A stretch of 42,130 nt of DNA from a virus. Location of the stretch: IMG/VR virus record IMGVR_UViG_3300013123_000015, positions 1 to 42,130 of that record, one strand, 5' to 3'. The first letter of the stretch is position 1; each line of letters starts with the position of its first letter. Below are positions 1 through 42,130 of this stretch, piece after piece. Made by a program: the position numbers and the translations under genes. The notes below the pieces were generated by a model. The model did not search any database, was not told the DNA's origin, and was given only the letters and a program-made list of their open reading frames with translations.

Positions 1-374
1 CATCCAGCGGAGTGCCGGAAAGGGACGGCATTGAAATAAGACTTGCCGAGTCGTCTGATTTTAAGATTCCCGGGATACCGCGCAGTACGTCCTTGTAAAC
101 TATCCCGCCAGCATCAACATCAATGCTCACATTTTTTGAGGCCGGGACATAAGCCAAGCCGAATTGCACCGCCACCCGATAAAGGCGGGTTGTGGCGGCA
201 GGAAGCGTCAAAGCAATCGTGCCCGCCGTGGCCGTGCCTGTAATCGTGACTCCGGCTTCATTCGCTCTGATAAATGCCTTCAGGCCGTCGGGTCCGGCGA
301 TCTCGTATTCAAGCGGGCCGCTACCGCCACCTTTTGCCCCCCATACGCCGTTGCCTTGAAAACATTGATCTGCA
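1..374. repeat. Terminal repeat, left copy (tail-fibre 3' region)
   Basis: Collinear without gaps with 41757-42130. I count 20 mismatches, all between bases 52 and 263; bases 264-374 are identical (111 bp). In the coding frame only five differences change an amino acid (D/N, I/K, A/S, A/T, Y/Q). That silent-biased pattern is evolutionary divergence, not sequencing noise. Most simply this is the join of a circular or circularly permuted genome assembled from a population with two tail-fibre alleles. Two paralogous fibre genes are the alternative. Confidence 0.9.
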
Positions 375-1426
375 TTACCGCTTAATGTAGGCAGGAATCC
401 AGCGGCTGAAGTAGTGGCCGTCGGGTGCGAATGCGTCAAGTTCGCCTTGCCGTCTAACGCTGTTTTTGCGGCTGCAAGGGTGATCGGGTTTGGGTCATCA
501 TAATTCGTTGTCCCCTTTGCCCCTGCCAGTGCAGCACGAGCGGCGGCATCCACACTCCCCGAGCCCTTGAGCCGTGGATCTGAATTGGTGACATATCTGT
601 TCGCATCCGAAGGCGTGCCGTCTGTCCCGACAAGAGCGGCTTTCTGATCCGTAGCGGGAATATTCGCATGTGCAAAAGCCGTGTTATGTGCGGCGATTGC
701 GGCAGCCGCCGCGCCAGCCGATTCGAAGTCTGAAACTTGCTTGCCGCTGTCCGTGACATGCAATCCGGTTGCGTCTTGATAAATGGGAATATGTCCCGCT
801 GTGGCCGCGCCCGAAGTTTCCACCTTTTTCCCAATGGCCGAGTTGAGTGCGTCGAGATTGGCCTTCGCGCCTTTCAGCGTTGTATCAGGGGCATCGTTCC
901 AATTCGCCGTGCCTTGGATGGCTTTGATCTGATCCCTGGCCGGCTGATCTTCAGCACCGCCACCGCCCACGGAATTGACCTCGGCTACTCCTGATCCCTT
1001 GTCAACCAGTGTCATCCTGTCGCCAATTTGAATTTCTTTGCACGGATCAACAGTAGCGCCGCCCGCCTTGGATACCTTGATCGAGCCGCCACTAGAAGAA
1101 TCAATCCACGACCTTTCACCGGTAATTTTCGATGATAATACTTGCCCGTCCTTGGCAGGATTGCCGAGGCTGTTTTCCTTCTTGGCAAGGCCATCATTTA
1201 AATCCTTTACAGTCGGTGCGCCTACCTGTGCCGCTGTGGTGCCGTGCGGATTCGCCTTATTGCCCGTGTGATCCGTCAGGTCTTTAACGGTGGGAGCGCC
1301 AACCTGTAAAGCCGTCGTTGTATGTGGATTGTCCTTCTGATTCGCGTGAGCTTCCGCTTCGTCCATGCAGTTATTCAGCTTGTCACATGCTATAATTCCG
1401 ATGTCTCCGATAATGATATGTTCCAT
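1..1426 (-). CDS. Tail fibre protein, 3' end beyond window (allele A)
   Basis: Open frame of 475 visible codons that runs off base 1. It starts with ATG at 1426, 4-8 bases after an AGGATAA ribosome site, just past the stop of the 55-aa gene. Near the N-terminus a unit NPHxTTAxQVGAPTVKDL occurs twice (about residues 33-72), typical of short repeats in tail-fibre shafts. Around residue 355 there is HSHPTATTSAAGFLP followed by LSGNADQCFQGNGVW, a motif common before the C-terminal domain of phage tail fibres. The frame continues into the same protein family at the other end of the window (41689-42130); joined across the overlap it would be about 497 residues. It probably forms part of the adsorption apparatus. 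The receptor is unknown. Confidence 0.8.
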   Translation of the reverse strand, partial: MEHIIIGDIGIIACDKLNNCMDEAEAHANQKDNPHTTTALQVGAPTVKDLTDHTGNKANPHGTTAAQVGAPTVKDLNDGLAKKENSLGNPAKDGQVLSSKITGERSWIDSSSGGSIKVSKAGGATVDPCKEIQIGDRMTLVDKGSGVAEVNSVGGGGAEDQPARDQIKAIQGTANWNDAPDTTLKGAKANLDALNSAIGKKVETSGAATAGHIPIYQDATGLHVTDSGKQVSDFESAGAAAAAIAAHNTAFAHANIPATDQKAALVGTDGTPSDANRYVTNSDPRLKGSGSVDAAARAALAGAKGTTNYDDPNPITLAAAKTALDGKANLTHSHPTATTSAAGFLPTLSGNADQCFQGNGVWGAKGGGSGPLEYEIAGPDGLKAFIRANEAGVTITGTATAGTIALTLPAATTRLYRVAVQFGLAYVPASKNVSIDVDAGGIVYKDVLRGIPGILKSDDSASLISMPSLSGTPLD

Positions 1427-1429
1427 TGC

Positions 1430-1948: not shown

Positions 1949-4060
1949 TCACTTTTCGAGTTTCTTTACTCGGTCGTTTAATGTTTCGATTAGCGATTGC
2001 TGGTCTTTACACACTTGGATCAGCAAGGCTATAAATGAAACATCATTTATTTCCCTGTATGGGTTATCGCTTCCACACGAAACCTGCGCTGGTTCACACA
2101 ATTCAGGATATTTATCCATAAACTTTTCAATTTCAAAACCATAAAAATAACAATTATCTTTATCGGTATGCTTATATTTAATGGGTTGCAAATCTTCCAA
2201 TATATTTAATGATAAATTAGGTTTCATAACTTCAGCCGCTCCTCCTTCTTTTATTCTGGCGTCTTGAATTGTACTTAAAGGGGCGGATACAACTAAAGCA
2301 TAATCAAATAGTGTCTTACCGCCATCTGGATCGCAATACCATTTGCACAGGTGTGGTTTTCCTTGTGTGCTATCCTTCTTGCAATGGATATACATTGTCC
2401 CCCTATTATAGCCGTCTAAATATCCCGAGGGGGCTTCGGTTAAACTTACTAAATCTTCCGCCTTATTTGCATCAACCCCACCCGCAAAGCTCGCGGAACC
2501 AGTAGGAGTAAGCTTTATTGCATCTACACTATTACTTCCATTCCCTACATATATCCCTGTACCACCTACGGCTGAATAATCGCCGGTTACCCTATTCCCT
2601 GCTATGAAATAACCGGAGTAATCTCCAGTCATGTACATTGTGAAATGGCCATTACCAAAACTCGCGGCACCATCTTTGTCGATCGCCGCTTTACCCCCCG
2701 CACAGCTCATAGAGCCGTCCTTATTCAGGATGATCGCCTTGTCTCCGATTGTTAAAGCTGTAACCATGTTCCATGTATGTATTCCGTTCACGCTCGTGCC
2801 GATTGCAACACCACCGTTGGCAGACATGGCCAGCTGAATATATTGAGCCTTATCGTGTGTCTCATCCTGCGGAATAATTCCCCACGTCTTTCCGCAATCG
2901 TAGGAAACATTGATGTCCTGAGTGAGAGCCGTTGCCGTCGCCATCAGCGTCTGACCGCTGGATGAGATTGCTACTCCGAGCCATTCCGATGTGCCCAAGG
3001 CATCGCATTTATTCCAGCTCGTGCCGCCATCAATAGATATCGACACGTAACCCTTTGAGGCATCACCAGTGCCCACAACAACGGTATTTCCATCGTCTGA
3101 GCATCGAACAACGCGAATATAAGAAACAGCCGTGATCGCCGCGCCCCAGCTAGTTCCGGAATTGGTGCTTTTATATAGATATTTCGAATCGCCCGAGGCT
3201 CCGATATAGACAGTCTTGCCGTCAGCGGAGCAACAGACTGAGCTTCCTGTCGTTATCGCCGGAGCAGTGGCAATCTTGTTCCATGTGTCGCCTTTATCTG
3301 TGGACTTATACACGGTGGTATTGGTGATCGCATAAGCTATCGATCCATCATGCGAGCAGGCGATATCCGAAACTGTATATGCCGCATTGACAACCTTATT
3401 CCAGTTGGCCCCGTAATCTTTCGACACCAGGAATCCGCCACCGTCAGGATGTCCGGCGATCATGAGGGATCCATCGGCTGACATAGCCGCGCAATCACAG
3501 GAACAGTTCTGGACTACGGCAATTTCATACGACACTCCATAGTCCGAGCTGATATACAATCGCATATTATCCGCGCACCCGGCTAAGATGTATTGCCCAG
3601 AGCTGGAACAAGCTACACATCTGAAAGTCCGTCCTGTTTGAAACTTGTTTAATCCTTTTTTGTGGACGATTTCTATTTCACCATCCGCCAGCTTGCCGCT
3701 TCCATTGGAATTCAGAACGATGGCATCTTCGCCCAACACGATCTGCTTCAATCTTTTGATCAGGCCGCCGACCGTCGGAACCATCGCATCGGCAAAGTCG
3801 TTATCCGTGATGGCGTCCGTGATGTCCTTGGCTGAGAATTGAGCGAGTAAAGAGCCGAGCGCGGAAGTGATCGCGGATGCCTGCTTCAGTACCTTGTTTG
3901 TGAGCTTCGATCGAAACAGTCCCGGAGTGTATCCGTCGCTTCGTTGCGGATCGGATTCATATTCTGCATCGGTCAGAATGTTGTTGTCAGTCGGATCGAA
4001 CCGCTGGATTTTATTCACTGCCGCGCCGTCAATATCCTGCACCTTGTTCTTCTTCATCAA
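1949..4060 (-). CDS. Tail fibre/spike with Asp-box beta-propeller and S74 chaperone
   Basis: 703 residues. An N-terminal part of about 130 residues is followed by repeated Asp-box (BNR) motifs of the form S-x-D-x-G-x-x-W, for example SSDYGVSYE, SKDYGANWN, STDKGDTWN, STNSGTSWG, SIDGGTSWN and SYDCGKTWG. At least six blades are visible between about residues 160 and 400, as in sialidase-like propellers. The last 115 residues (from about 589) match the intramolecular chaperone of endosialidase type (peptidase S74): STIQDARIKEG, then an NILEDLQPIKYKH-like segment and a terminal coiled coil ending KKLEK. Such chaperones trimerise the fibre and cut themselves off. Inferred role: host-surface recognition, perhaps glycan binding. 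No catalytic glycosidase residues could be assigned. Confidence 0.85.
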   Translation of the reverse strand: MMKKNKVQDIDGAAVNKIQRFDPTDNNILTDAEYESDPQRSDGYTPGLFRSKLTNKVLKQASAITSALGSLLAQFSAKDITDAITDNDFADAMVPTVGGLIKRLKQIVLGEDAIVLNSNGSGKLADGEIEIVHKKGLNKFQTGRTFRCVACSSSGQYILAGCADNMRLYISSDYGVSYEIAVVQNCSCDCAAMSADGSLMIAGHPDGGGFLVSKDYGANWNKVVNAAYTVSDIACSHDGSIAYAITNTTVYKSTDKGDTWNKIATAPAITTGSSVCCSADGKTVYIGASGDSKYLYKSTNSGTSWGAAITAVSYIRVVRCSDDGNTVVVGTGDASKGYVSISIDGGTSWNKCDALGTSEWLGVAISSSGQTLMATATALTQDINVSYDCGKTWGIIPQDETHDKAQYIQLAMSANGGVAIGTSVNGIHTWNMVTALTIGDKAIILNKDGSMSCAGGKAAIDKDGAASFGNGHFTMYMTGDYSGYFIAGNRVTGDYSAVGGTGIYVGNGSNSVDAIKLTPTGSASFAGGVDANKAEDLVSLTEAPSGYLDGYNRGTMYIHCKKDSTQGKPHLCKWYCDPDGGKTLFDYALVVSAPLSTIQDARIKEGGAAEVMKPNLSLNILEDLQPIKYKHTDKDNCYFYGFEIEKFMDKYPELCEPAQVSCGSDNPYREINDVSFIALLIQVCKDQQSLIETLNDRVKKLEK

Positions 4061-7648: not shown

Positions 7649-7959
7649 ATTACGTAATAAAGGTTTGCATCCTTCCCAAGATTGTCCTGCGTTGGGTTCG
7701 AATTCGGCGAGCCTTCGGTGTAAACGTACAGGCTCCCTGGGATTCCAACGTGTTTGAACGATTCCAGAAGATCAGATCCGGCCACGAGCGGAAGCGACAG
7801 GATCAACGGCCCATCGGTCACGGCATCGAAAATATCCAGCTGCCAGGAGTTGGAAGCGCTATTCCAACGATTCCGCATGTGGAGCGGCCGATCGGAAAGC
7901 GTGATATCGAACTCCTGCGGCACGTTCGTTAAAGGTATTTTGTAATACTTCTTACTCAT
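7645..7959 (-). CDS. Baseplate plug protein (cyanophage Pam3 gp18-like)
   Basis: 104 residues, start ATG 7957-7959 inside TAATG shared with the previous stop. A longer upstream frame exists but lacks coding support. The sequence MSKKYYKIPLTNVPQEFDITLSDRPLHM, then WNSASNSWQLDIFD, then LLESFKHVGIPGSLYV follows the small beta-rich family called baseplate plug in Pam3-type myophages. It lies between the Dit-like protein and the hub as in those phages. Family assignment is from memory of sequence pattern plus synteny. Confidence 0.75.
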   Translation of the reverse strand: MSKKYYKIPLTNVPQEFDITLSDRPLHMRNRWNSASNSWQLDIFDAVTDGPLILSLPLVAGSDLLESFKHVGIPGSLYVYTEGSPNSNPTQDNLGKDANLYYVI

Positions 7960-8468
7960 TAAAAAATACTCGCCATCTGAGAAAGATTCGACTCTTCCAC
8001 GGGCGTTTTCTCGCCTGTTTTTTCCGTCCCGCCAGTTTCGTTCGGCTTTTTGTGTACCTTGCGCGGCGGAACTTTCACGGTCTGAGTTGAAACCATGATG
8101 ATCTCCCGGCATTTCAGCGAGAGAGACAGGACGTTTTCCGTCTCTTTATCCGTGGTCTGTCCGACTGACTGCATCAGCATGTTTTTATAAATGCGCTTGG
8201 GTGTAGTAATTTGAAACGGCTCGCGGGATGCCTGAAGGATCAGGAAGTCGGAATAAATCTGGTCGAGTGGCTTTTCGTTCTGGCCGCACAGAATCTTTAA
8301 CGACAATTCGGCCGGCTGTTTGAATGCGTGATCTGTTATCGGTGCGCCGTTCTGTACCGGATGACTGGTAATCTCCAACTCATCGGTGGTGGACTCCTCG
8401 ATCAGGACGTAAGCAGTAATATTCCCGATCGAGCGCTGCGTTTTTAAGATGGCGACTGTGCTTGCCAT
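7959..8468 (-). CDS. Dit-like baseplate protein
   Basis: 169 residues, directly downstream of the tape measure. The first 120 residues contain a beta-sandwich pattern (AYVLIEESTTDELEITSHPVQNG; ITDHAFKQPAELSLKILCG; EPFQITTPKRIYKNMLMQSV) seen in Dit-like/baseplate proteins. NGAPITDHAFKQPAELSL is the most diagnostic part. The last 45 residues are charged and probably disordered (PRKVHKKPNETGGTEKTGEK). It forms the adaptor between tail tube end and hub. Confidence 0.75.
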   Translation of the reverse strand: MASTVAILKTQRSIGNITAYVLIEESTTDELEITSHPVQNGAPITDHAFKQPAELSLKILCGQNEKPLDQIYSDFLILQASREPFQITTPKRIYKNMLMQSVGQTTDKETENVLSLSLKCREIIMVSTQTVKVPPRKVHKKPNETGGTEKTGEKTPVEESNLSQMASIF

Positions 8469-17622: not shown

Positions 17623-18045
17623 ATGGAGGGAGACGGCAAAAGGAATCATGATCACTGGAAACCACCTCAGTCTCCTTCGGTCGGCAACAAGCTGACAATC
17701 ATCCTGCCCATGGAAATTACAAACTATCTCGATCATCTCGTGCTGGATATCCGAGCCAAGACAAGGCGGAAAATCAGAAGAGCTGAGATCATCCGTGCAA
17801 TCATTCACGGTGTCATACAGTCCGGGATCGACTTGACCGGCTATGCCAACGAAGAGCAAATATCCAAAGTGATACAGGAAAGCATCACGCGGCCACCCAT
17901 CCGTAAATCAATCAAAGACATCATGCGCGATAAGATGCAGGCGATATACGATGACCTCGTACACGAGAATCCCGACCAGGAACCCGAAGCATGGGAATAC
18001 ATCAAGAATCAAGGCGCTGAAGGGATTGTCAAAAGGCTGAAGTGA
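17623..18045 (+). CDS. Ribbon-helix-helix DNA-binding protein
   Basis: 140 residues on the plus strand, against the surrounding head genes. Residues 22-66 fit a ribbon-helix-helix domain: strand NKLTIILP, helix MEITNYLDHLVLDIR, basic turn AKTRRKIR, helix RAEIIRAIIHGVIQ. A C-terminal helix (SIKDIMRDKMQAIYDDL, 96-112) resembles a segment in the next protein. GAGGT lies 8 bases before ATG 17623. The gene overlaps its partner by GTGA at 18042. Probable autoregulator, or an antitoxin-like component of a two-gene moron. Target unknown apart from the nearby operator. Confidence 0.7.
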   Translation: MEGDGKRNHDHWKPPQSPSVGNKLTIILPMEITNYLDHLVLDIRAKTRRKIRRAEIIRAIIHGVIQSGIDLTGYANEEQISKVIQESITRPPIRKSIKDIMRDKMQAIYDDLVHENPDQEPEAWEYIKNQGAEGIVKRLK

Positions 18046-18683
18046 AGAAGCCAAGACGAAAGAAAGAAAGAATCATCGAAGGCCCCATTAACTGGCCTCC
18101 CGTGCTGCTACGCGAAGGAAAACATCCAGGCACGATGGAAGAGCACAACAGCGCGGCCGGATGGCATGACGCAGGCTTGGAAGAAATCCGGCGTGCTGAA
18201 ATAGCAAGTGGCAAGCCCGACACACTGCGAGAAATACTTGTCCGGAAGCTGCAAGAGGCATACGAGGAGATCGCCCAGCATTACAAGGGCCTGTCCACGT
18301 ACTACCAAATCCCCTATTACATCGTCATGGAGCTTTTAATCATGCTGGAGCCGTTCAAAAAGGGCGGCAAGCGTGACGATGGAAAGAGTTTGTACCCGGA
18401 GTTTATGTATAAAACCATTGGATTAAAACCGGAGAGATTATTATATAAAAATATAATTGACGTGAATCGCAGATTAAGCCCGCTTCATGATCCTGTTATG
18501 AAGAAAGATTTATTCGCACAATACAAAGACGAAATCTTCGATAGTTTGCGCTTCTGGCTTTTGAAATTAATCGAAAGCAACCCGGGAGCGGACAAAGAGG
18601 TGTTGAAGAAACATGCACAAAAAGAACTTCTTGGCGTGATTGATTTAATAATCGAGCATATTCTTTCAATGCTGCCTGATTGA
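18042..18683 (+). CDS. Unknown partner of the RHH protein, 213 aa
   Basis: Starts with GTG at 18042, overlapping the RHH stop by 4 bases, so translation is probably coupled. Basic N-terminus MKKPRRKKERII, then IRRAEIASGKPDTLREILVRKLQEAYEEIAQHY (about 49-81), mostly helical to the end (LLGVIDLIIEHILSMLPD). The segment at 61-77 resembles residues 96-112 of the RHH protein, suggesting contact or common descent. No catalytic motif, no signal peptide or clear membrane segment. Its 3' end overlaps the convergent head gene by 18 bases. Possible toxin, exclusion factor or co-repressor. Function not recognised. Confidence 0.65.
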   Translation: MKKPRRKKERIIEGPINWPPVLLREGKHPGTMEEHNSAAGWHDAGLEEIRRAEIASGKPDTLREILVRKLQEAYEEIAQHYKGLSTYYQIPYYIVMELLIMLEPFKKGGKRDDGKSLYPEFMYKTIGLKPERLLYKNIIDVNRRLSPLHDPVMKKDLFAQYKDEIFDSLRFWLLKLIESNPGADKEVLKKHAQKELLGVIDLIIEHILSMLPD

Positions 18684-22421: not shown

Positions 22422-22770
22422 TCATGATTTCATCATACAGGTCATGGCGGACCGGCGCTTCCGTGTCGACGGTGATTGTCTGCTTATCGGATTGTCCAAG
22501 CCAGTTTTTGCCAAGCCATATTTGCATTGCAACATTACCTTTTAATGCTGACTGCATCTGCACGCGGCGTAAGGATATTTTCCCAATCTTGGCTTTTTGC
22601 TCGTAAAACCGCTCAAAACTCATACCTTTCTCTTTGTGGCATTTCCGCCGGATGGATGAAACATCACAATCAAACCATGATGCAATTTCTTCTTGTGTTG
22701 ACTGCATCGCGCAAAGTTTATCGAACTCATCCCAGTCTATTTCTTTAGGCGGTCTGCCGGTTTTCTTCAT
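22390..22770 (-). CDS. Terminase small subunit
   Basis: 126 residues. The N-terminal part GRPPKEIDWDEFDKLCAMQSTQEEIASWFDCDVSSIRRKC is a helix-turn-helix typical of small terminases (a GRPPK arm, then T-Q-E-E-I-A-x-W/F). The rest, GKISLRRVQMQSALKGNVAMQIWLGKNWLGQSD, is the conserved oligomerisation helix of this family. It overlaps the upstream methyltransferase gene by 26 bases and terL by 32. It recognises the packaging site, which is expected nearby but was not identified. Confidence 0.88.
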   Translation of the reverse strand: MKKTGRPPKEIDWDEFDKLCAMQSTQEEIASWFDCDVSSIRRKCHKEKGMSFERFYEQKAKIGKISLRRVQMQSALKGNVAMQIWLGKNWLGQSDKQTITVDTEAPVRHDLYDEIMNDKTPEAKQG

Positions 22771-24031
22771 GATTCAACTCGTTGAATTTAACACCATCTG
22801 ATTCACGGACGGCTTCGCGGCCGGTGAATTCTTGCCAGCGCTTCACGCCGACGTCTACATAAAGCGGGTCTATCTCCATCGTATAGCAACAGCGCCCTGT
22901 TTTTTCCGCGGCGATAATTGTTGGCCCAGAGCCGGAGAAGATATCCACGACAATATCCTCGGCATCGGAGCTGTTTAGGATGGCATTCTCGATGAGCTCG
23001 ACAGGCTTCATGGTCGGGTGGAGTTTCGATGCTCGAGGCTTATCAATGAACCAACAGGAAGTCTTGTGTTGTCCCTGCATGGTTCGTTTGTGTGTTTTCG
23101 TCCAGGTAAACAGAATCGGCTCGTGCTGGTAATCATAATCGAGACGGCCCAAGGAAAATGTGGGAGAGTTCTTTACCCAGTTCAGGCCGTGGCGCGTTGG
23201 CAGGCCCGCCTCTTGCATCATCATCATCATCATCATCATCATCCCCAGACTACCACCCTGGGGAGCAGTAACGTAGACCGCGCAGGAGTCCGAAAGCACA
23301 GATCGCAGGTTTGAGAAGGCGGACACTAGGATGAGCTTGAGCTCCTCCGGCGAAGCGGTGTCGTTTTCAATGTTTCGCAAACAGCATCCTGAAGGATGGA
23401 AGCTGTTTAGAAACTTGTTTTTATCTCCAATCGCCACGCCATAGGGCGGATCGGTGAATACCATGTCTGCTTTATTGCCCACCATGAGCGCAGATATAGC
23501 CTCCGGATCAGTGGAATCGCCGCACATAAGGCGGTGCTTACCGAGGAGCCAAACATCGCCCAACTTTGAAACCGGCTCGCTGGGAACCTCTGGAACTTCA
23601 TCCGGATCGGTTAATCCTTCTGTTTTATCCGCAAGGAGATCCTTGAGTTCCTTTGCGTCAAAACCGATAAGGCTGAGATCGAAATCCAGTCCTTTCAAGT
23701 CTTTTATTTCCAAGCTCAGGAGTTCATTATCCCAGCCGGCATTTTCCGAGAGCTTGTTGTCCGCGAGGATATATGCGCGGATCTGGGTGGGTGTGAGATT
23801 CTTTATCTCGATGCACGGCACCTCGAGCAGGCCGAGCTTGCGGGCGCCAAGCACCCTGCCGTGGCCGGCTATGATGCCGTTCGATCCATCCACGAGCACC
23901 GGATTAGTCCAGCCGAACTCTTTGATGCTCGCGGCGATCTGGGCAACCTGGGCGTCGCTGTGAGTCCTGGCGTTGCGGGCGCATGGAATCAATGAGTCAA
24001 TCTGTCTGATTTCAATTTTCAAATCCTTCAT
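22745..24031 (-). CDS. ParB-like domain fused to DNA N4/N6 methyltransferase
   Basis: 428 residues. Residues 5-90 are a ParB/sulfiredoxin-like domain (NARTHSDAQVAQIAASIKEFGW; NGIIAGHGRVLGARKLGL). The methyltransferase follows with catalytic motif DPPY at 194-197, HPTMKP at 338-343 and the SAM-binding FSGSG at 365-369; this motif order is that of beta-class N4-cytosine/N6-adenine enzymes. A run of nine Met at 264-272 interrupts the middle. As first gene of the late block it may protect or mark DNA before packaging. Specificity cannot be read from the sequence. Starts at ATG 24031 with little leader. Confidence 0.88.
   Translation of the reverse strand: MKDLKIEIRQIDSLIPCARNARTHSDAQVAQIAASIKEFGWTNPVLVDGSNGIIAGHGRVLGARKLGLLEVPCIEIKNLTPTQIRAYILADNKLSENAGWDNELLSLEIKDLKGLDFDLSLIGFDAKELKDLLADKTEGLTDPDEVPEVPSEPVSKLGDVWLLGKHRLMCGDSTDPEAISALMVGNKADMVFTDPPYGVAIGDKNKFLNSFHPSGCCLRNIENDTASPEELKLILVSAFSNLRSVLSDSCAVYVTAPQGGSLGMMMMMMMMMQEAGLPTRHGLNWVKNSPTFSLGRLDYDYQHEPILFTWTKTHKRTMQGQHKTSCWFIDKPRASKLHPTMKPVELIENAILNSSDAEDIVVDIFSGSGPTIIAAEKTGRCCYTMEIDPLYVDVGVKRWQEFTGREAVRESDGVKFNELNHEENRQTA
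22773..22786. promoter_or_regulatory. Perfect 14-bp palindrome before terS start
   Basis: TTCAACTCGTTGAA, fully self-complementary, ending 3 bases before the terminase small subunit ATG and inside the end of the methyltransferase gene. The same half-sites (TTCAAC, GTTGAA) with four bases between occur at 24062-24077 ahead of the methyltransferase itself. It could be an operator, a terminase site or coincidence. Confidence 0.3.
23216..23242. repeat. Trinucleotide repeat (CAT)9 coding for nine Met
   Basis: Nine uninterrupted CAT units on the plus strand, read as ATG on the coding strand, giving MMMMMMMMM in the methyltransferase just before QEAGLPTRHGLNWVK. Related enzymes have a Met/Phe-rich helix here, so the run expands an existing feature. 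Slippage would change length in steps of one residue, not cause frameshifts. Confidence 0.85.
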
Positions 24032-32282: not shown

Positions 32283-32418
32283 AGAATGCCTTGGATGCTT
32301 CAGCATCCGAAATGACGAGTGCGGCACCTGCCCGGACACCCGGCAATGTATGAGGGAGCGGCTTGGAGATGACTGCGATGAACATGACTCAGATGAAGGA
32401 GGAGACGATGGAGAATAA
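32269..32418 (+). CDS. Small Cys-rich protein 2, 49 aa
   Basis: ATG 32269 with GGAGGA 5-8 bases upstream. MPKDKECLGCFSIRNDECGTCPDTRQCMRERLGDD: C7-x2-C10, C18-x2-C21, C27, and C36 later, with an acidic C-terminal tail (DEHDSDEGGDDGE). It ends inside the start of the DUF2800-like gene. It resembles the preceding mini-protein at CxxCP-x3-QC. No family recognised. Confidence 0.65.
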   Translation: MPKDKECLGCFSIRNDECGTCPDTRQCMRERLGDDCDEHDSDEGGDDGE

Positions 32419-33559
32419 ATTGGAAATCAGATGCTCAAAAGCGGAACGAATTATTGCCTGCCCGGGCTCTGCACTGGCTGAATCGAAGTGCCCGAAGGAT
32501 CCCGGGAATGAGTTCACCAGGCGCGGCAAGGCGATCCACGAATGGTTGGAAAGAGCGATCAAGACCGGCGATGTGAGCCCGGGCGCTCCCCTCTCTGACG
32601 ACCCAGAAGAGTATGAAAACGCGAACTCGATGCTCAGTAAAGTCAACGACATCCTTGCCGCTCACGGTGGTGTCTGCAAAGACCCCATCACCGGCACGCC
32701 CATGATTGAGTGTGAATTCCATCTGGACGCTGCCGGGTGGACGGGCACGCCGGATCTGGTCGTTTTAGCGGCGGATGATACGTGGTCGATTTTTGATTAT
32801 AAAACGGGCTGGGCCGAGGTGCCGCATCCTTCGGAAAACAAACAACTCTATCTTTATTCAGCCCTATTGAGAGAGATGGACATTATCCCGGCAAACGCAC
32901 CGATCCATGCTCACATCATAACTCCCCGAGCGGCGTTTTCGGCTGAATACAGTGTTGAATTATTAACAAACATCACCATCGAGGCGAAGAAGGCCGCCGA
33001 GCTGGCCAGAAAGCCGGACGCCGAAAGACGGCCGTCTGTATCAGCGTGCCAGTATTGTCGCGCCAGGTGTAGTGAATCCTGCCCCGAGAGTTTGAAAACC
33101 GCCGACAATCTGAAGCAGGCAACCGAGGTCATCAAGCCGCCGTCAATGAGCATTCAGAATCTACCCGCGGACGTGCTCTGCAACATCAAAGACCAGGCTG
33201 ATCTTTTGGCCGACGTTGTTGAGCAGGTTGAGGCCGAAATGAAACGACGGCTCAACGAGGATGCTTTTGCATTCCAGGGACGCTATCGCCTGAAGCCAGG
33301 CAGGGAGATCACACAGATAACCGACACGGACGCCGCAATTACCGCATTGAATCAGGCTGGTATAAGCCGTTCAACCATCCTGGAAGGTATGACGATATCT
33401 CCAAAAGCTGTAGCTGATGCCTACAAACTTCAGGCTGGTCTCACAAGCAAGAAGTCTCGGGAGATTGTGGACACTGCCCTGATGCCTTATGCGGAAAAGA
33501 AACAGGCCAGTCCTTCCCTTTGCAGGGAAAGGAAGGCAATCGAACAAGAGGCAGCATAA
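32408..33559 (+). CDS. DUF2800-like PD-(D/E)XK exonuclease with Cys cluster
   Basis: 383 residues from ATG 32408, which has AAGGAGG 5 bases upstream; longer starts overlap the previous gene without a site. MENKLEIRCSKAERIIACPGSALAESKCP, RRGKAIHEWLERAI, then GWTGTPDLVVLAADDTWSIFDYKTGWAEVPHPSENKQLYLYSALLREM (about 115-165): GTPDLV then FDYKTG gives the D...D-x-K catalytic pattern. CQYCRARCSESC (about 217-228) is a cysteine cluster like those of Cas4/AddB nucleases and might hold an Fe-S cluster. Partner of RecT in end resection. A coiled C-terminal half follows. Confidence 0.82.
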   Translation: MENKLEIRCSKAERIIACPGSALAESKCPKDPGNEFTRRGKAIHEWLERAIKTGDVSPGAPLSDDPEEYENANSMLSKVNDILAAHGGVCKDPITGTPMIECEFHLDAAGWTGTPDLVVLAADDTWSIFDYKTGWAEVPHPSENKQLYLYSALLREMDIIPANAPIHAHIITPRAAFSAEYSVELLTNITIEAKKAAELARKPDAERRPSVSACQYCRARCSESCPESLKTADNLKQATEVIKPPSMSIQNLPADVLCNIKDQADLLADVVEQVEAEMKRRLNEDAFAFQGRYRLKPGREITQITDTDAAITALNQAGISRSTILEGMTISPKAVADAYKLQAGLTSKKSREIVDTALMPYAEKKQASPSLCRERKAIEQEAA

Positions 33560-34814: not shown

Positions 34815-34839
34815 AGCCGCGTTTCTGCGCGGCTTTTTC
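34815..34839 (+). terminator. Rho-independent terminator of early operon
   Basis: AGCCGCG (34815-34821), loop TTTCTG, CGCGGCT (34828-34834), then a run of T. It follows the coiled-coil gene and an 11-codon frame MTDIKRLCYEY (34730) that has no evident role. The converging minus-strand gene ends inside the T run. On the minus strand there is no T run after the stem, so it acts mainly on the plus strand. Confidence 0.8.
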
Positions 34840-35068
34840 AATCCTTTTGCAACTCCTCCAGTTTGTCCAATAGGTATTTCTCGATTTTTTGTGAATAATC
34901 ATTCAAATAGGTCCGCAACACAGAGAACCGCATCATGTGACGATATGTTTCGTCGTAGTTTAGTGCCGGACCCTTCTCCATACGTTCAAGAAGCCAGCCT
35001 ACCCACCCCGCGTATGCAGAGGCATGATTCCGCGCCGCTTCGAGATATTCTTTAATCTTGTCCGCCAT
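34838..35068 (-). CDS. Hypothetical helical protein at end of late block, 76 aa
   Basis: MADKIKEYLEAARNHASAYAGWVGWLLERMEKGPALNYDETYRHMM, ending KIEKYLLDKLEELQKD. All helical and amphipathic. The one mildly hydrophobic stretch (YAGWVGWLL) is too short for a clear membrane span, so a holin is not supported. GGGAG precedes the ATG by about 5 bases. It overlaps the 62-aa gene by 17 bases and is the last late gene, converging on the early-operon terminator. Family not recognised. Confidence 0.65.
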   Translation of the reverse strand: MADKIKEYLEAARNHASAYAGWVGWLLERMEKGPALNYDETYRHMMRFSVLRTYLNDYSQKIEKYLLDKLEELQKD

Positions 35069-35242: not shown

Positions 35243-35587
35243 TTATCTCTGATATGCGCGAATGTAGTACCCCCCTACCCCACCCGCCGCACAAACTAAA
35301 ACTAAAGCTACTCCCATAGCAGTCCAAAAAATAATTCTGTTCTCTCTTTCCTGTTCGATCCCTTTTTGAAAATTATACTCTGCAACTGTACGAAGCATCT
35401 CATCACTCATTTTTGGTAGTATAGGAATAAAGCCTTTTGTTGGGACAGGCAACGTATTCTGTGCCGTTTGTTGATATGACTGAACGCCTTTATTCGCTTC
35501 CTGAATATTTGAAGAAACCGATTTACCAGATGTTGCACAACCGGAAGTAATAAGAACGACAATCAAAATCATGGAAATAATCTTCAA
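35243..35587 (-). CDS. Candidate unimolecular spanin (lipoprotein with C-terminal membrane segment)
   Basis: 114 residues from TTG 35587 (AAGGG 5 bases before); ATG 35572 is an alternative. The N-terminus MILIVVLITSGCATSG is a lipoprotein signal with the lipobox ITSGC. After a Ser/Gln-rich periplasmic stretch with prolines, residues about 87-107 (IIFWTAMGVALVLVCAAGGVGGYYI) form a membrane segment near the end. Lipid anchor at one end and a C-terminal span at the other is the diagnostic layout of phage T1 gp11-type u-spanins, which join both membranes at lysis. Sequence similarity to T1 is not claimed. A non-lysis lipoprotein remains possible. Confidence 0.55.
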   Translation of the reverse strand: MKIISMILIVVLITSGCATSGKSVSSNIQEANKGVQSYQQTAQNTLPVPTKGFIPILPKMSDEMLRTVAEYNFQKGIEQERENRIIFWTAMGVALVLVCAAGGVGGYYIRAYQR

Positions 35588-35621: not shown

Positions 35622-37232
35622 CTATGTCAGGGTAAAAACTTTTTGCTCGCATCTTTTGATGCATTTTCCACAACCATTACACTTATTTCTATCTACTGTA
35701 GGAATATTGTGAAATGTAAGACTATAATAAGCAAAATCCCCTAGTGTTATAGCACAATCCGCAGTTGACCTTCCCTGAACGCAAATATCTACGCAATCCC
35801 TACACGGCGATTGGTGATTGGCGTTCTTAATTCCTATCCTGTTATAGCAGCTCCATAAATTAATCGGAAACGCCTTATAGTCTGAAGCTACTGGCAGCTT
35901 GTACTTGTCATTCACAAAAACCTGCATCTTGTCCATGAACTGTTTTCTGGTATCGTCAGAATTGATATATTGAGAGACATTATTCATGTCAAGGTTATTT
36001 TGTTTGTAGAAGTTGTACAAGTCCACTACCTGTGCATTTGTAACTACAACATACACAGTCTTCTTTCCTTGCTTGTCGTCCGTGTTTGTAGTAGTGGCAA
36101 CATAGAAGGTGGGCGACACATCAAACTCTTGCTTGTAATTGAATGTTACTATAGCAGGGTCAATATAGATAGTCTTATTGCCGTCCTTGGTTCTTACAGT
36201 AAACGGAACTGTCCCAGCTTTAGCAGTATCGTAGGTTCGATAATAGAAAGAAGGCTTTGAAATACACAACTTGTCCTTATAATCATCATATCTCGCATCA
36301 GGAAGCAACTCTGGAACAATAGGGTTTCCGTATGCGTCTACTCTAGCGTCCTTACAGAACGGGTCGCCAAACTCATACATCTTGTCCGCTGAAAGGTTAT
36401 GATAGCAAGGATAACCTTGCGGATCAGTTGTAATAATCTCATAATGATCGCAAGAACCATTGGCCGCCTTCACCCACTTACATATAGAAGGCTCTCCAGC
36501 AGGTGAGACTATTGCGTATTTCATAGCTTTTCCTGACCAGGGACTTCCGGCGCTTGCTTTCCACATATCCATGAGGCCTACGCTTAAATCAACCAAGTCA
36601 CTATTCCTTTGCAGAGCTTCTCTTAAATGCCCCTCTTCCCCTTGCGTGGCGTAGTTTTGATAGCAATTATAACCTCCACCTATGATAACGGCTATGGTAG
36701 TTAAAAGAGCCACCCACTTGCCGGAATCGTGCACAGGATTGTTTAAAAGAGAAAAATAATACAACCTATGCTGATTGGAGTCGTACATGTAAAACCGTGG
36801 TTGCCAATACCCTCTCCTGGACAGGTCTGAATTTTCTACATTGACAGTTACTTTGTCTCCCGAACGAACAAACAGGTCAACAGCATTCTCGACTCCAAGG
36901 TTGTCCCTGAAATGGTAATGAGAAGTGTCTCCGGAAATATAGGAATTTCCGTAAGGGACTAAATCAATATTTGAACAATTTATAATAACCAAATTGTTTC
37001 TGTCGTTAGGATTCTGTACTCCCCACTTTACCCTCCCTTCAGCTTTTAACTCAAAGTCCGGAATTGCTAAAGAGGAGTCTAGTTGATTTAATCCTCTCAG
37101 CGTATAGATAAAGCACATTTGTTCATTTTCCGAAAGTGAAGAAAAATCAACAGAGCTTAACAGTAAATTGTAGGCATCTAAATATTTCCCCTCTTTCGCT
37201 AATGTCCCCACTCTGTCAAAAATTTCGTTCAT
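35622..37232 (-). CDS. Membrane protein with C-terminal ferredoxin-like 4Fe-4S domain
   Basis: 536 residues, AGGAG ahead of ATG. An N-terminal helical part (1-52) is followed by a beta-rich domain (60-165: FELKAEGRVKWGVQNPNDRNN, SGDKVTVNVENSD, RFYMYDSNQHRLYYFSLL). One hydrophobic segment comes next (about 173-189, WVALLTTIAVIIGGGY). A Cys-containing region leads to the C-terminal C477-x2-C480-x3-C484-x8-C493 and C518-x2-C521-x2-C524-x3-C528, the second being a textbook 4Fe-4S ligand set. No signal peptide. I know no phage virion protein like this. It may be an accessory redox protein acquired from an anaerobic host. Confidence 0.7.
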   Translation of the reverse strand: MNEIFDRVGTLAKEGKYLDAYNLLLSSVDFSSLSENEQMCFIYTLRGLNQLDSSLAIPDFELKAEGRVKWGVQNPNDRNNLVIINCSNIDLVPYGNSYISGDTSHYHFRDNLGVENAVDLFVRSGDKVTVNVENSDLSRRGYWQPRFYMYDSNQHRLYYFSLLNNPVHDSGKWVALLTTIAVIIGGGYNCYQNYATQGEEGHLREALQRNSDLVDLSVGLMDMWKASAGSPWSGKAMKYAIVSPAGEPSICKWVKAANGSCDHYEIITTDPQGYPCYHNLSADKMYEFGDPFCKDARVDAYGNPIVPELLPDARYDDYKDKLCISKPSFYYRTYDTAKAGTVPFTVRTKDGNKTIYIDPAIVTFNYKQEFDVSPTFYVATTTNTDDKQGKKTVYVVVTNAQVVDLYNFYKQNNLDMNNVSQYINSDDTRKQFMDKMQVFVNDKYKLPVASDYKAFPINLWSCYNRIGIKNANHQSPCRDCVDICVQGRSTADCAITLGDFAYYSLTFHNIPTVDRNKCNGCGKCIKRCEQKVFTLT

Positions 37233-37314
37233 AATTTTATCTCCTTGTTTATTAAAGTTTATCTATAATGTTTTCAATAAATACTCTTACTTTACCGACC
37301 TCACTTTTAGTAAT

Positions 37315-38271
37315 TTATTCAATTACACACTCGCCATTTACACAATATCCTTGACGATCATCTAACCAGCACTCAGTTCCGTTAGGTATATTCGTCCAAT
37401 CTGTGTAGTTTAGAACTGGGTCGCAAATTCTGCATGCACCTCCAGGTGCTGTTTCGTATTTAACAACGTATATTTCATCAATATAGCACCCTGGTAGAGG
37501 TTGGCAAGAAGGATTATCTATTGACATTTGAATAAAACCGACATTACAAACACAAGAGGCAGAAAAACCCCCGTCAATAGGCACTGATACGCAATACCCA
37601 TTACTACATACAATGCCGTGACAAACATTTTCCTGTTCAGGGGGAGAACAAACCCCGCCAAGGCAAACTCCCGATGCATTATAATCTAAACACGCGGAAC
37701 TATCCGTAACAACAGACCACCCGGATTTATTGAGTGTCGGATCGCATATATGACAATTATATTGATACTGTCTGGTGTATTTGGGATACGTTAAACTGCT
37801 GATTACACAATTTTCTACTACTAAACAATGTACACCAGAAGATTCGTAGCCAGGGTCACATTGACAAGTAGGTTGATCGTTATTCAACACACATTTCCCA
37901 TGGCCATCGCAAGCTATCCCCGCACAAAGAGAACAATTACAAGACCAAGTATCTTTGGTTATAATTAAAGAACAAGGAGCAGCACATGGCGGGTAGGAAC
38001 ATACAAAAGAACATTTACCCTCTTCTACACAACTACCCCCAACCGAAACTTGGCCAATAGGAATAAACTGCCCTTCAGTATTGCATTGCCCAATCGCCTC
38101 TTTATAGAGTGAAGGAATTGCTCCCGTGGGACAGGGACATTTTGTAATGTCACAATTTGTCCCTGTCGCAGGAATGCTACAACTAATCATGCAAATAGGC
38201 CAGCTTAAAAGGGCTGCTACAAAAAGGTATAATAAACCTATTGTAAATTTGTTCTTAGCAAAATTAGCCAT
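37315..38271 (-). CDS. Secreted Cys-rich lipoprotein with EGF-like modules
   Basis: 318 residues with 37 cysteines. Signal peptide/lipobox: FTIGLLYLFVAALLSWPICMISC (about 9-31). EGF-like modules at about 116-155 (CAGIACDGHGKCVLNNDQ, then TCQCDPGYESSGVHC) and 217-262 (CHGIVCSNGYCVSV, SCVCNVGF). Each is followed by a module C-x2-CDP-x-LN-x3-W (CHICDPTLNKSGW at 173; CRICDPVLNYTDW at 280). This alternation is known from secreted proteins of Myxococcota and relatives and is very unusual in phages. It would be exported and disulfide-bonded, or be a virion surface protein. Probably host-derived cargo. Starts 3 bases after the preceding lipoprotein. Confidence 0.75.
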   Translation of the reverse strand: MANFAKNKFTIGLLYLFVAALLSWPICMISCSIPATGTNCDITKCPCPTGAIPSLYKEAIGQCNTEGQFIPIGQVSVGGSCVEEGKCSFVCSYPPCAAPCSLIITKDTWSCNCSLCAGIACDGHGKCVLNNDQPTCQCDPGYESSGVHCLVVENCVISSLTYPKYTRQYQYNCHICDPTLNKSGWSVVTDSSACLDYNASGVCLGGVCSPPEQENVCHGIVCSNGYCVSVPIDGGFSASCVCNVGFIQMSIDNPSCQPLPGCYIDEIYVVKYETAPGGACRICDPVLNYTDWTNIPNGTECWLDDRQGYCVNGECVIE

Positions 38272-38273
38272 AA

Positions 38274-38693
38274 CTATTTCTTAACTTCAGAGACTACTCT
38301 CTGATCAAATATCCTAAGATTTTCACACGGATCATCTTTGGGACCCTTTGTGGGGTCACATGTGACAGAGGAAATTGTCCCGCCGCATTCAACAACCGCT
38401 TGTATCTGATTAGCCTGTCCGCCTTTTGATGTAGCTACCTTAACCACAGCATACTCTGGAGAGCCGCCATCGGGCGCTGCTGAATGCTGTTTCTTATAAA
38501 CATACATAAGCCCAACTGCATATCTATCTGGATTTCCCTTTAAGCACTTACCTGCTGTTTCAGAAAGAATATTTATATTCTTAGGGTCTTTAAGGTAATC
38601 GGGAATCATCTTTTCCAGATCGTTTAGATCGCAACCAATAGCAAAAACCACACCAAGGCCAACCATCACACACGCAGCTTTTAGATACTTCAT
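38274..38693 (-). CDS. Small lipoprotein
   Basis: About 139 residues from ATG 38693 (AAAGGG 6 bases before); an ATG at 38708 overlaps the fibre stop in an ATGA and is the alternative. MKYLKAACVMVGLGVVFAIGCDLNDLEKM: signal segment with Cys at the end (AIGC lipobox, weak). The mature part has CLKGNPDRYAVGLMYVYKK, VECGGTISSVTCDP and four further Cys that may form disulfides. First gene of the A+T-richer accessory stretch and directly coupled to the EGF-like gene. Function unknown. Confidence 0.65.
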   Translation of the reverse strand: MKYLKAACVMVGLGVVFAIGCDLNDLEKMIPDYLKDPKNINILSETAGKCLKGNPDRYAVGLMYVYKKQHSAAPDGGSPEYAVVKVATSKGGQANQIQAVVECGGTISSVTCDPTKGPKDDPCENLRIFDQRVVSEVKK

Positions 38694-38704
38694 TTTTTGC
38701 CCTT

Positions 38705-40387
38705 TCATTCAAAAATAGCTTTTACGAGTGAATAACCACTACCGGAAACATTAACCGTAAAATCACCGCTTACTGCGTTGATATCAAGCGTTGCTATTGT
38801 CTGGCACAGATCAAGAGTTACACTGTTGCCCTCCGTGTACCAATCCTCTTGAGGGTTTTTTCGCGGGGGCGTCCGGAAGAACGTACCTGTCCGGATATCC
38901 GTGCTAATGCCAACATAAGACTTACCCTGTATGGTATATTTTTTGGTAGCATTCACCCCGTCGTTAATTATCTCAACGGGAAATGTAAGATACTTGTCAT
39001 CGCTCTTTAGGATCACATTAACCTTTGTAAAGTAGCAGAGATTCTTAATAGTCTGTTTTGCTCCCGAAATCAGATTAACAGGCTCATACCTTGAATAAAT
39101 AAAGCCATTGCCTGAATAATCATTCATGCTGGCGCCGAACGTAAAGGCATACTGCACGCCCGAAAACAAAATCCCGAAAGTGTCAGCCTTTGGAACCTCA
39201 AGGGGCAAGGTAGGAAGAAGTGTAATCTGCTCTTTTAGTGCGTCATCGCACTGCCAGTTAGAAGCACCATAAAGGTCTGCGCTTGTGATATTTATACCGC
39301 TATTCACCTTCGGCATGGCAAGCCATATCTTGCCCGCTGTCCAATAGGGCACACCGCAAAAACGGTTAGTGGGCAGCCATTGAACATCGGTTATCCAGCC
39401 ATCGTTTATCTCAAATCTTAAACTAGCATTTGATTCGATGTGATTTACAACCACGTTAAGGTGCAGCGTAAAAGTGCCGTGCATATTCCGAACACGGCTT
39501 TTAAGATTAAACAACACCGCAGCCTTATCGGAAGCTATATCGACACTTGTAAAACTCGCTACTTTAACAACGTTATAGTCATCAAGAGCATTCATGTCTT
39601 TTTGCAAAGATTCAATGGCGGGTTTCCAATCTGTAACGTGTTCCTCAAGCGTCCCGACTCTCGTGTTGAGGGTACTGGTTGCAGTTTTAAGCGTAGAGAT
39701 ATCCCCGTCATTATCGGCCATATAAGGCTTTACTGTATTATTACGCCATAGGTTAAGCTCTGTTGCCAATCCGCTCGCAGTAGCACCCAGACCGGCACCA
39801 GACCAGGCAGCGGCAGCCATAGACTTATAACCCGCATCATTAGGCACGGCATTGTCAGCAGTTTTCTTGGCAGTCGCCGAATCTGTAAGCGCCTTGGTCG
39901 CCTTCGCATCAATACCATTAGCCACTGTAACAGCATTAGCCGAATCAGTAATGGCTTTCTCGGCCTTGCCATCTACCTTAACGGCAATATCCTTGGCATC
40001 ATTGGCCAGAGCCAGAGCGCCGTTTGCTGTCTCAATCGCATGAGCAGCATCGAGGGACGCTTGAACGGCCTTAGAAGCGGCGTCATTGGCTGTGCCTATC
40101 GCAGTCTCGCTATTCGAAAGAGCTGTTGCTATATCTGTTAGCTTGGCATCTGATATAAACCTATTGTCGGCATCGGTCACAATCTCTGCGGGAGCATGAG
40201 AATGCTGTTTTAAAGCAAAAGTGCTTTTAGGTACAATTTCAATCAGTGTGTTCGAATCATACCCGACAAGTGAATCAGGAGACCCTACCAGCCATTTCAA
40301 TTTGTAGTTGTTTTTAGGATCGGCATCACCGTCTTTTGCTAAAAGATCCTTGTCATTGCCTAACTGTGGAAAATCGTTCTGTACCAT
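38705..40387 (-). CDS. Coiled-coil tail fibre protein
   Basis: About 560 residues from ATG 40387 (GGAG 6 bases before, inside AAAGGAGCTCCC); a TTG start 15 bases earlier is weaker. VQNDFPQLGNDKDLLAKDGDADPKNNYKLKWLVGSPDSLVGYD is a typical fibre N-terminus, then HSHAPAEIVTDADNRFISDAKL (about residue 61). A long Ala/Asp-rich heptad region of about 130 residues (TANDAASKAVQASLDAAHAIETANGALALANDAKDIAV) forms a trimeric coiled coil. The C-terminal 300 residues are beta-rich. It follows the collagen-like fibre. Probable receptor-binding or side fibre. Confidence 0.75.
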   Translation of the reverse strand: MVQNDFPQLGNDKDLLAKDGDADPKNNYKLKWLVGSPDSLVGYDSNTLIEIVPKSTFALKQHSHAPAEIVTDADNRFISDAKLTDIATALSNSETAIGTANDAASKAVQASLDAAHAIETANGALALANDAKDIAVKVDGKAEKAITDSANAVTVANGIDAKATKALTDSATAKKTADNAVPNDAGYKSMAAAAWSGAGLGATASGLATELNLWRNNTVKPYMADNDGDISTLKTATSTLNTRVGTLEEHVTDWKPAIESLQKDMNALDDYNVVKVASFTSVDIASDKAAVLFNLKSRVRNMHGTFTLHLNVVVNHIESNASLRFEINDGWITDVQWLPTNRFCGVPYWTAGKIWLAMPKVNSGINITSADLYGASNWQCDDALKEQITLLPTLPLEVPKADTFGILFSGVQYAFTFGASMNDYSGNGFIYSRYEPVNLISGAKQTIKNLCYFTKVNVILKSDDKYLTFPVEIINDGVNATKKYTIQGKSYVGISTDIRTGTFFRTPPRKNPQEDWYTEGNSVTLDLCQTIATLDINAVSGDFTVNVSGSGYSLVKAIFE

Positions 40388-40398
40388 GGGAGCTCCTT

Positions 40399-41676
<1,278 letters not shown>

Positions 41677-41688
41677 CAATTCACCGCC

Positions 41689-42130
41689 TTAGAAAAGGAA
41701 AACGACAGTATAAACAACATCATCCTGAGCTATATTTTTAAATCTCCATGTGTGCCCATCCAGCGGAGTGCCGGAAAGGGACGGCATTGAAATAAGACTT
41801 GCCGAGTTGTCTGATTTTAAGATTCCCGGGATACCGCGCAGTACGTCCTTGTAAACTTTCCCTCCGGCATCAACATCAATGCTCACATTTTTTGAGGCCG
41901 GGACATAAGCCAAGCCGAATTGAACCGCCACCCGCTGGAGCCTCGTTGTAGTGGAAGGAAGCGTCAAAGCAATCGTTCCCGCCGTGGCCGTGCCCGTGAT
42001 TGTTACTCCGGCTTCATTGGCTCTGATAAATGCCTTCAGGCCGTCGGGTCCGGCGATCTCGTATTCAAGCGGGCCGCTACCGCCACCTTTTGCCCCCCAT
42101 ACGCCGTTGCCTTGAAAACATTGATCTGCA
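41689..42130 (-). CDS. Tail fibre protein, 5' end beyond window (allele B)
   Basis: Open from beyond base 42130 to the stop at 41689; the frame is the same as the 1-1426 fibre (ADQCFQGNGVW at the far end, then IAGPDGLKAFIRANEAG). It ends SLSGTPLDGHTWRFKNIAQDDVVYTVVFLF. An apparent start MTLPSTTTRL lies inside this frame and is not the real one. Compared with the left copy it has Q for Y, S and T for A and A, N for D and K for I. Very likely the C-terminus of the same gene after circular closure. Confidence 0.8.
   Translation of the reverse strand, partial: ADQCFQGNGVWGAKGGGSGPLEYEIAGPDGLKAFIRANEAGVTITGTATAGTIALTLPSTTTRLQRVAVQFGLAYVPASKNVSIDVDAGGKVYKDVLRGIPGILKSDNSASLISMPSLSGTPLDGHTWRFKNIAQDDVVYTVVFLF
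41757..42130. repeat. Terminal repeat, right copy (tail-fibre 3' region)
   Basis: Collinear with bases 1-374. The last 111 bases are identical to 264-374 and the rest carries 20 substitutions. If circular, the genome is about 41,756 bp. Direct joining of base 42130 to base 1 breaks the reading frame, so the two copies must be overlapped, not abutted. Confidence 0.9.

Follow-up and report, generated by a model that had tools for sequence, protein, structure and literature searches.

Near the distal end of the late operon of a temperate phage lies a gene for a 536-aa protein whose C-terminus probably carries a genuine Fer4-type motif, a kind of motif that is rare in phages, and whose remaining sequence has no homologue detectable in the collections searched. 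Our tentative interpretation, drawn from sequence comparisons, is that this is an orphan late accessory gene encoding a cytoplasmic protein, the Fer4-type module of which would hold at least one [4Fe-4S] cluster in a structural or switch role. The features on which the analysis is based are collected in Table 1.

Table 1. Features of the 536-aa ORF and of its neighbours (positions in the window)
Feature	Position	Strand	Basis or remark
536-aa ORF	35622..37232	-	ATG start; phage late protein, homologue only for the C-terminal Fer4 motif
Shine-Dalgarno AAGGAG	37241..37246	-	sequence; 8 nt before the ATG
Residues 1-170: helical start, then probably beta-rich	36723..37232	-	low-confidence prediction only
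Residues 173-191: marginally hydrophobic, possible membrane helix	36660..36716	-	hydropathy
Residues 192-475: central region, six further cysteines, no homologue found	35808..36659	-	
Incomplete first Fer4-like motif (motif I), C477-x2-C480-x3-C484; Q474 at first-Cys position	35781..35804	-	
C493, possible substitute ligand	35754..35756	-	
Canonical Fer4 motif (motif II), C518-x2-C521-x2-C524-x3-C528	35649..35681	-	Pfam, alignment, shuffles
u-spanin-like protein	35243..35587	-	TTG start; lipobox (TSGC) near N-terminus, C-terminal transmembrane segment, no periplasmic cysteine
318-aa EGF-like cysteine-rich exported protein or lipoprotein, next gene upstream	37315..38271	-	11.6% Cys, 37 cysteines
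144-aa lipoprotein-like protein	38274..38708	-	sequence
Tail fibre-like protein	38705..40402	-	PHROGs
Collagen-like tail fibre protein	40399..41679	-	Pfam, PHROGs
76-aa protein of no known family, last late-operon gene	34838..35068	-	sequence
Terminator-like hairpin and T-run closing the converging early operon	34815..34834	+	number of such hairpins in the region not above chance

The phage genome and its late operon

The stretch of DNA analysed, referred to here as the window, comprises the entire IMG/VR record IMGVR_UViG_3300013123_000015 (42,130 bases). By its gene content the record is a temperate contractile-tailed phage (myophage): a tyrosine integrase, an excisionase-like protein, RecT, an exonuclease and a replication protein are accompanied by terminase, portal, capsid, sheath, tape measure and baseplate genes. 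The two ends of the record (1-374 and 41757-42130) dovetail over 374 bp with 95% identity within a tail-fibre gene, which points either to a genome of about 41.8 kb that is circularly permuted and was imperfectly closed owing to strain variation, or to a contig broken in a repeated fibre domain; the genome may be incomplete at its ends. If the ends join, the fibre ORF 1429..1 would run on from about 42130 to 41689, and the late genes on the minus strand would extend from 24031 down to 1 and then from 42130 to 34838, facing the early operon. The 536-aa ORF sits near the end of this late operon. An initial annotation of the same DNA had described it as a phage late gene lying among fibre and lysis genes, and gene content and order support this, with fibre genes upstream and a probable u-spanin gene immediately downstream.

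At the protein level the nearest named phages are the Burkholderia phages Magia and BgManors32 (sheath 43–45%, capsid about 37%), and the best terminase match is found in Idiomarinaceae phage 1N2-2 (53%). Short IMG/VR contigs of the record sets 3300013125 and 3300013137 hold identical capsid or baseplate genes, so that the phage has been assembled more than once. The cassette of distal late genes to which the 536-aa ORF belongs is absent from both capsid contigs, nor do its genes match anything in the baseplate contig. The GC content of the cassette is 0.39–0.42 as compared to about 0.50–0.54 in the head and tail genes, and the earlier suggestion that the gene is cargo acquired from a host is possible on these grounds.

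Magia and BgManors32 share with the window the late order of terminase, capsid, sheath, tape measure, baseplate and fibre genes, and both keep cargo and lysis genes in the same slot after the fibres. The contents of the slot differ. In Magia it holds an O-acetyltransferase, a lipid esterase, a holin, an endolysin and spanins, whereas the window is without a recognisable holin or endolysin; in BgManors32 it holds a chitinase-type gene, and none of the cassette genes of the window occurs in either phage. In a related viral contig (L142) a reverse transcriptase and an M15-like peptidase were seen by eye in this slot. The reverse transcriptase adjoins a formylglycine-enzyme-like fibre protein (L142, 5451-7106), again by eye, suggesting a diversity-generating retroelement; Magia is annotated with such an element as well.

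Several other parts of the window deserve mention in their own right. Within the head gene cluster, two genes of no known family are encoded on the other strand (17623-18683, +); the first resembles, by eye, a ribbon-helix-helix regulator, and the two might be a moron or a toxin-antitoxin-like pair. The ParB/DNA-methyltransferase fusion at 22745-24031 (-) contains a run of nine methionines encoded by an ATG repeat, a candidate in-frame variable microsatellite. The fibre protein at 1949-4060 (-) has 20 cysteines and a sortilin/beta-propeller-like repeat region. Finally, the PD-(D/E)XK exonuclease at 32363-33559 (+) contains a cysteine cluster, CQYCRARCSESC, that recalls the 4Fe-4S site of AddB/Cas4-type nucleases.

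The 536-aa ORF

The 536-aa ORF is a real gene, with a strong ribosome site and a clear coding bias; the two alternative frames of the coding strand contain 39–42 stops. In its last 61 codons GC3 drops to 0.26. AlphaFold gave no usable fold for the protein (mean pLDDT 33–34, with and without a small alignment), the pLDDT being about 50 for residues 1-30 and lower elsewhere. A search for a moron promoter ahead of the gene was unproductive, promoter-like sites being no commoner than in shuffled sequences.

The C-terminal cysteines

Eight C-terminal cysteines (477, 480, 484, 493, 518, 521, 524 and 528), read in the initial annotation as two 4Fe-4S sites, are indeed present, and the second site is as textbook-like as had been described. 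The last 96 residues belong to the single-motif Fer4 family (PF00037 / PF12837), scoring above the curated Pfam cut-offs (Fer4_6 27.3 vs 25, Fer4 23.2 vs 21.1), while the whole protein remains just below them (Fer4_6 20.5 vs 25, Fer4 20.0 vs 21.1). When sequences were shuffled 200,000 times, the spacing CX2CX2CX3C arose 69 times for the whole protein and 679 times for the last 96 residues; the more specific pattern C.GCG.C...C arose in only 2 of 200,000. In addition, motif II and its flanks (residues 508-535) show about 57% identity to an RnfB of Candidatus Desantisbacteria across 28 residues, with an alignment score of 96 (shuffles: mean 34, maximum 56–60). This match takes in glycines and residues past the final cysteine, features whose conservation a disulphide-rich domain would not require, suggesting that the C-terminus probably carries a genuine Fer4-type motif. 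The weak NCBIfam matches are nearly all to 4Fe-4S proteins (nif ferredoxin III, RnfB, HgcB, NapG and NapH); the protein lies far outside the RnfB and NapH families themselves, with about 10–17 bits against cut-offs of 213–445.

The first site is less complete. C477, C480 and C484 fit positions 2–4 of CX2CX2CX3C, with Q474 at position 1, a register that is backed by the best local alignments (CRDCVDICVQG to CGxCIxxCPxG) and by a Fer4_7 match that starts at profile position 5. Residues 476-511 alone are weakly above chance, their score being reached by 36–145 of 1000 shuffles. No dicluster model passes on the C-terminal 96 residues (Fer4_7 20.8 vs 27, Fer4_9 18.0 vs 27), and, judged by two complete motifs and a curated score, the protein falls outside the 2[4Fe-4S] ferredoxins (Fer4_7, Fer4_9, Fer4_10). 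Possibly C493, nine residues after C484, or C462, 15 residues before C477, could stand in for the missing cysteine. Upstream of motif II (residues 455-511) the similarity to RnfB/NapH-like proteins is not clearly above shuffles; a derivation of the C-terminus from such proteins, for which a CxxxC upstream is appealing by eye, was rejected on this ground.

Under the cross-over rule usual for ferredoxins the ligands of cluster II (C518, C521, C524 and C484) are all present, and cluster I would have C477, C480 and C528 with one non-standard ligand. Since motif I is without its first cysteine and cluster I needs such a ligand, one cluster is likelier than two.

The hydrophobic segment and the topology of the protein

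The single membrane segment that had been assigned to the protein loses its firmness on closer inspection. The Kyte-Doolittle value of residues 173-191 is 1.37, similar to that of soluble virion proteins of the same phage (1.33–1.44 for baseplate, spike and sheath proteins, with 1.44 for the baseplate and 1.39 for the sheath). On a biological hydrophobicity scale its sum of 3.5 is intermediate: soluble proteins give 4.1 or more, while clear membrane or signal segments give 2.3, 1.0, -0.3 and -0.4. These sums are crude, and the comparison proteins are those of the same phage. As a membrane anchor the segment is marginal by these measures.

The topology poses a further difficulty. Single-pass proteins without an N-terminal signal adopt an N-in/C-out orientation by default. 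The 536-aa protein has no such signal, and the C-side flank of residues 173-191 is more acidic than the N-side flank; a single-pass segment would therefore place the C-terminal cysteines in the periplasm. However, proteins that Sec exports in the unfolded state are not known to contain assembled 4Fe-4S clusters. The terms "ferredoxin" and "membrane-linked" are thus in conflict, and one of the two, cluster or anchor, is probably mistaken. As the motif is well above chance and the anchor is marginal, the cluster is favoured over the anchor.

Neighbouring genes

Three neighbours of the 536-aa ORF start with a lipoprotein or signal-peptide sequence. The product of the gene directly downstream shows all the features of unimolecular spanins, namely an N-terminal lipobox, a C-terminal TMD and no periplasmic cysteine, the last of which it shares with the 58 catalogued u-spanins (PMC6139136). 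No significant spanin family match was found for it, Rz-like spanin PHROGs matching only at E 0.64–0.75; on its features it is a probable u-spanin gene involved in lysis. For the EGF-like protein encoded upstream, neither tblastn against phage records nor a scan of IMG/VR with exact patterns revealed a relative.

Neither an endolysin nor a holin is recognisable anywhere in the record, and an endolysin search of the late genes with PHROGs and Pfam gave nothing convincing. One match of 7959-8468 to an endolysin-named PHROG was rejected as a tail family scores higher. Given this lack, cassette genes without a known family, the 536-aa ORF among them, may have lysis roles. No convincing match to a defence system was obtained, and neither the 536-aa protein nor the cassette revealed a redox partner or a domain for flavin, haem or quinone, so that the proposed electron traffic with the host membrane finds no support.

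Searches for relatives

Outside motif II the 536-aa protein has no detectable relative in IMG/VR, phages, plasmids, PDB, Pfam, PHROGs, NCBIfam or 784 genomes. In detail, the whole ORF, the N-terminal part and the middle were each sought in viral contigs through six patterns of exact 8-mers, and no relative came up; such single-sequence scans detect close relatives only. In genome contigs the matches were limited to the ferredoxin motif. Among phages and plasmids tblastn gave one weak match to the motif, and a blastn search of phages with the ORF was negative. No PHROG family, virion families included, matched at E up to 1, and no homologue was found in the 784 genomes, which represent two phyla that were not picked by host identity. 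A DNA pattern with seven cysteines at fixed spacing matched only low-complexity or non-homologous frames.

The approach by way of other phage genes was similarly unrewarding. The terminase led to no relatives, and the capsid to two short fragments only. The baseplate J gene is shared by 80 IMG/VR loci, and the distal cassette genes are absent from all of them; only the main fibre (fib703) matches, plus the next ORF in a near-identical contig. The same fusion, for which the initial annotation had suggested a search of related phages and prophages, was thus not encountered among these 80 loci.

Possible functions

According to the explanation we tentatively prefer, the gene would occupy a slot of variable content, used for cargo and lysis genes, where the late operon of this temperate myophage ends, an assumption supported by the cargo and lysis genes that Magia and BgManors32 keep in the same slot. 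The protein would be made in the cytoplasm and might become bound to the virion. One [4Fe-4S] cluster would be held by C518, C521 and C524 together with one cysteine of motif I, most simply C484; a second, non-standard cluster of C477, C480 and C528 with C462 or C493 is conceivable. The single complete motif and the lack of partner domains suggest that the cluster would most likely fold or stabilise the C-terminus, or be a switch that responds to iron or oxygen; a role as electron carrier is less likely. Against this explanation it counts that motif I is not demonstrably a cluster site, and that the exported, cysteine-rich and lipid-anchored neighbours, the six central cysteines and the marginal segment fit an extracytoplasmic location.

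Indeed, the protein might be an extracytoplasmic cysteine-rich one, with residues 173-191 as signal anchor, its C-terminal two thirds in the periplasm and its cysteines engaged in disulphides or another metal site, the cassette altering the surface of the lysogen or excluding other phages. The three neighbours with lipoprotein or signal-peptide starts, one of them having 37 cysteines, the cysteines of the central region and the default N-in/C-out topology are all in keeping with this. However, the Fer4 match keeps the glycines and flanks typical of cluster loops, and on the Kyte-Doolittle scale the segment is no stronger than soluble virion proteins; we therefore consider such a location rather unlikely, if worth bearing in mind.

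By analogy to the tail tip of lambda, the protein could also be a virion component, i.e. an additional fibre- or baseplate-associated protein with an iron-sulphur module. The gene comes after the fibre genes, lambda gpL carries a [4Fe-4S] cluster on the tail surface (PMC10721106) and iron has been proposed in fibres from HxH motifs (PMC11705849). Yet gpL belongs to siphophage tails and has dispersed cysteines instead of Fer4 motifs, no PHROG matches at E up to 1 and lipoprotein genes stand between the ORF and the fibres, so that we regard a virion protein of this kind as distinctly improbable.

There is also little reason to believe that the gene is a functionless relic or chimera, in which recombination or misassembly would have fused a piece of a host ferredoxin to an unrelated gene of the phage. 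A fusion without homologue anywhere searched, the deviating GC content of the cassette, the low GC3 of the last 61 codons and a metagenome assembly with ends that do not match exactly would be compatible with such an origin. On the other hand, one open frame runs throughout, the gene has its own ribosome site, the next gene is tightly spaced and the low GC is common to the whole cassette, not to the Fer4 part alone.

Very unlikely in our view is the membrane-anchored ferredoxin of the initial annotation, trading electrons with the host membrane or sensing redox state to time lysis. Its late position directly before the u-spanin-like gene would suit it, and RnfB and NapH, which are among the closest relatives of the motif, are membrane-bound iron-sulphur proteins; but the anchor is marginal, the topology would export the cluster, only one motif is complete, the cassette offers no partner protein and the likeness to RnfB and NapH outside motif II is not clearly above shuffles. 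The most specific form of this idea, a 4Fe-4S cluster at the inner membrane within a lysis cassette that would sense oxygen or redox state to time lysis or discharge the membrane, together with the u-spanin and with no classical holin or endolysin, strikes us as far-fetched.

A Fer4 motif fused to a large late protein beside a probable spanin gene offers a specific example, open to testing, of how an iron-sulphur module may enter the late functions of a phage. Should the protein be just cargo or have a structural cluster, which is likelier, it still adds to the few iron-sulphur proteins known from phage late regions.

Comparison with known iron-sulphur proteins

Fer4 motifs are known in phages, and judged by our sequence searches they are rare there and near absent from named isolates. 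When 50,697 phage records were queried with RnfB from a bacterium and with a ferredoxin stretch of 94 aa, the matches were confined to 'Bacteriophage sp.' records from faeces that are unannotated, to a Salmonella contig and to a 3.1-kb record bearing the name of an Escherichia phage. Four bacterial Fer4 control proteins all reached PHROG 16249 'ferredoxin' (moron/auxiliary), the sole family of that name to be reached, and one of them also a family of unknown function; the 536-aa protein does not match PHROG 16249, a profile of 208 positions, at E up to 1.

With Fer4 proteins of the RnfB/HdrA/NapH type (PF00037, PF12837) the 536-aa protein has motif II and its flanks in common. Unlike them, it has neither the first cysteine of the first motif nor a multi-cluster array nor partner subunits, and its Fer4 motif is fused to about 470 residues without detectable homologues. 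The ferredoxin of cyanophages (petF) is likewise phage-borne; however, it is a small, soluble protein of the plant-type [2Fe-2S] class with an unrelated fold.

The one firm precedent for an iron-sulphur cluster in a late phage protein is the lambda tail-tip protein gpL, whose C-terminal domain carries a [4Fe-4S] cluster on the tail surface (PMC10721106). The two proteins resemble each other in being late phage proteins with an actual or putative iron-sulphur domain at the C-terminus, whereas gpL, from the tail tip of a siphophage, uses four dispersed cysteines (173, 182, 205 and 212) in place of a Fer4 motif.
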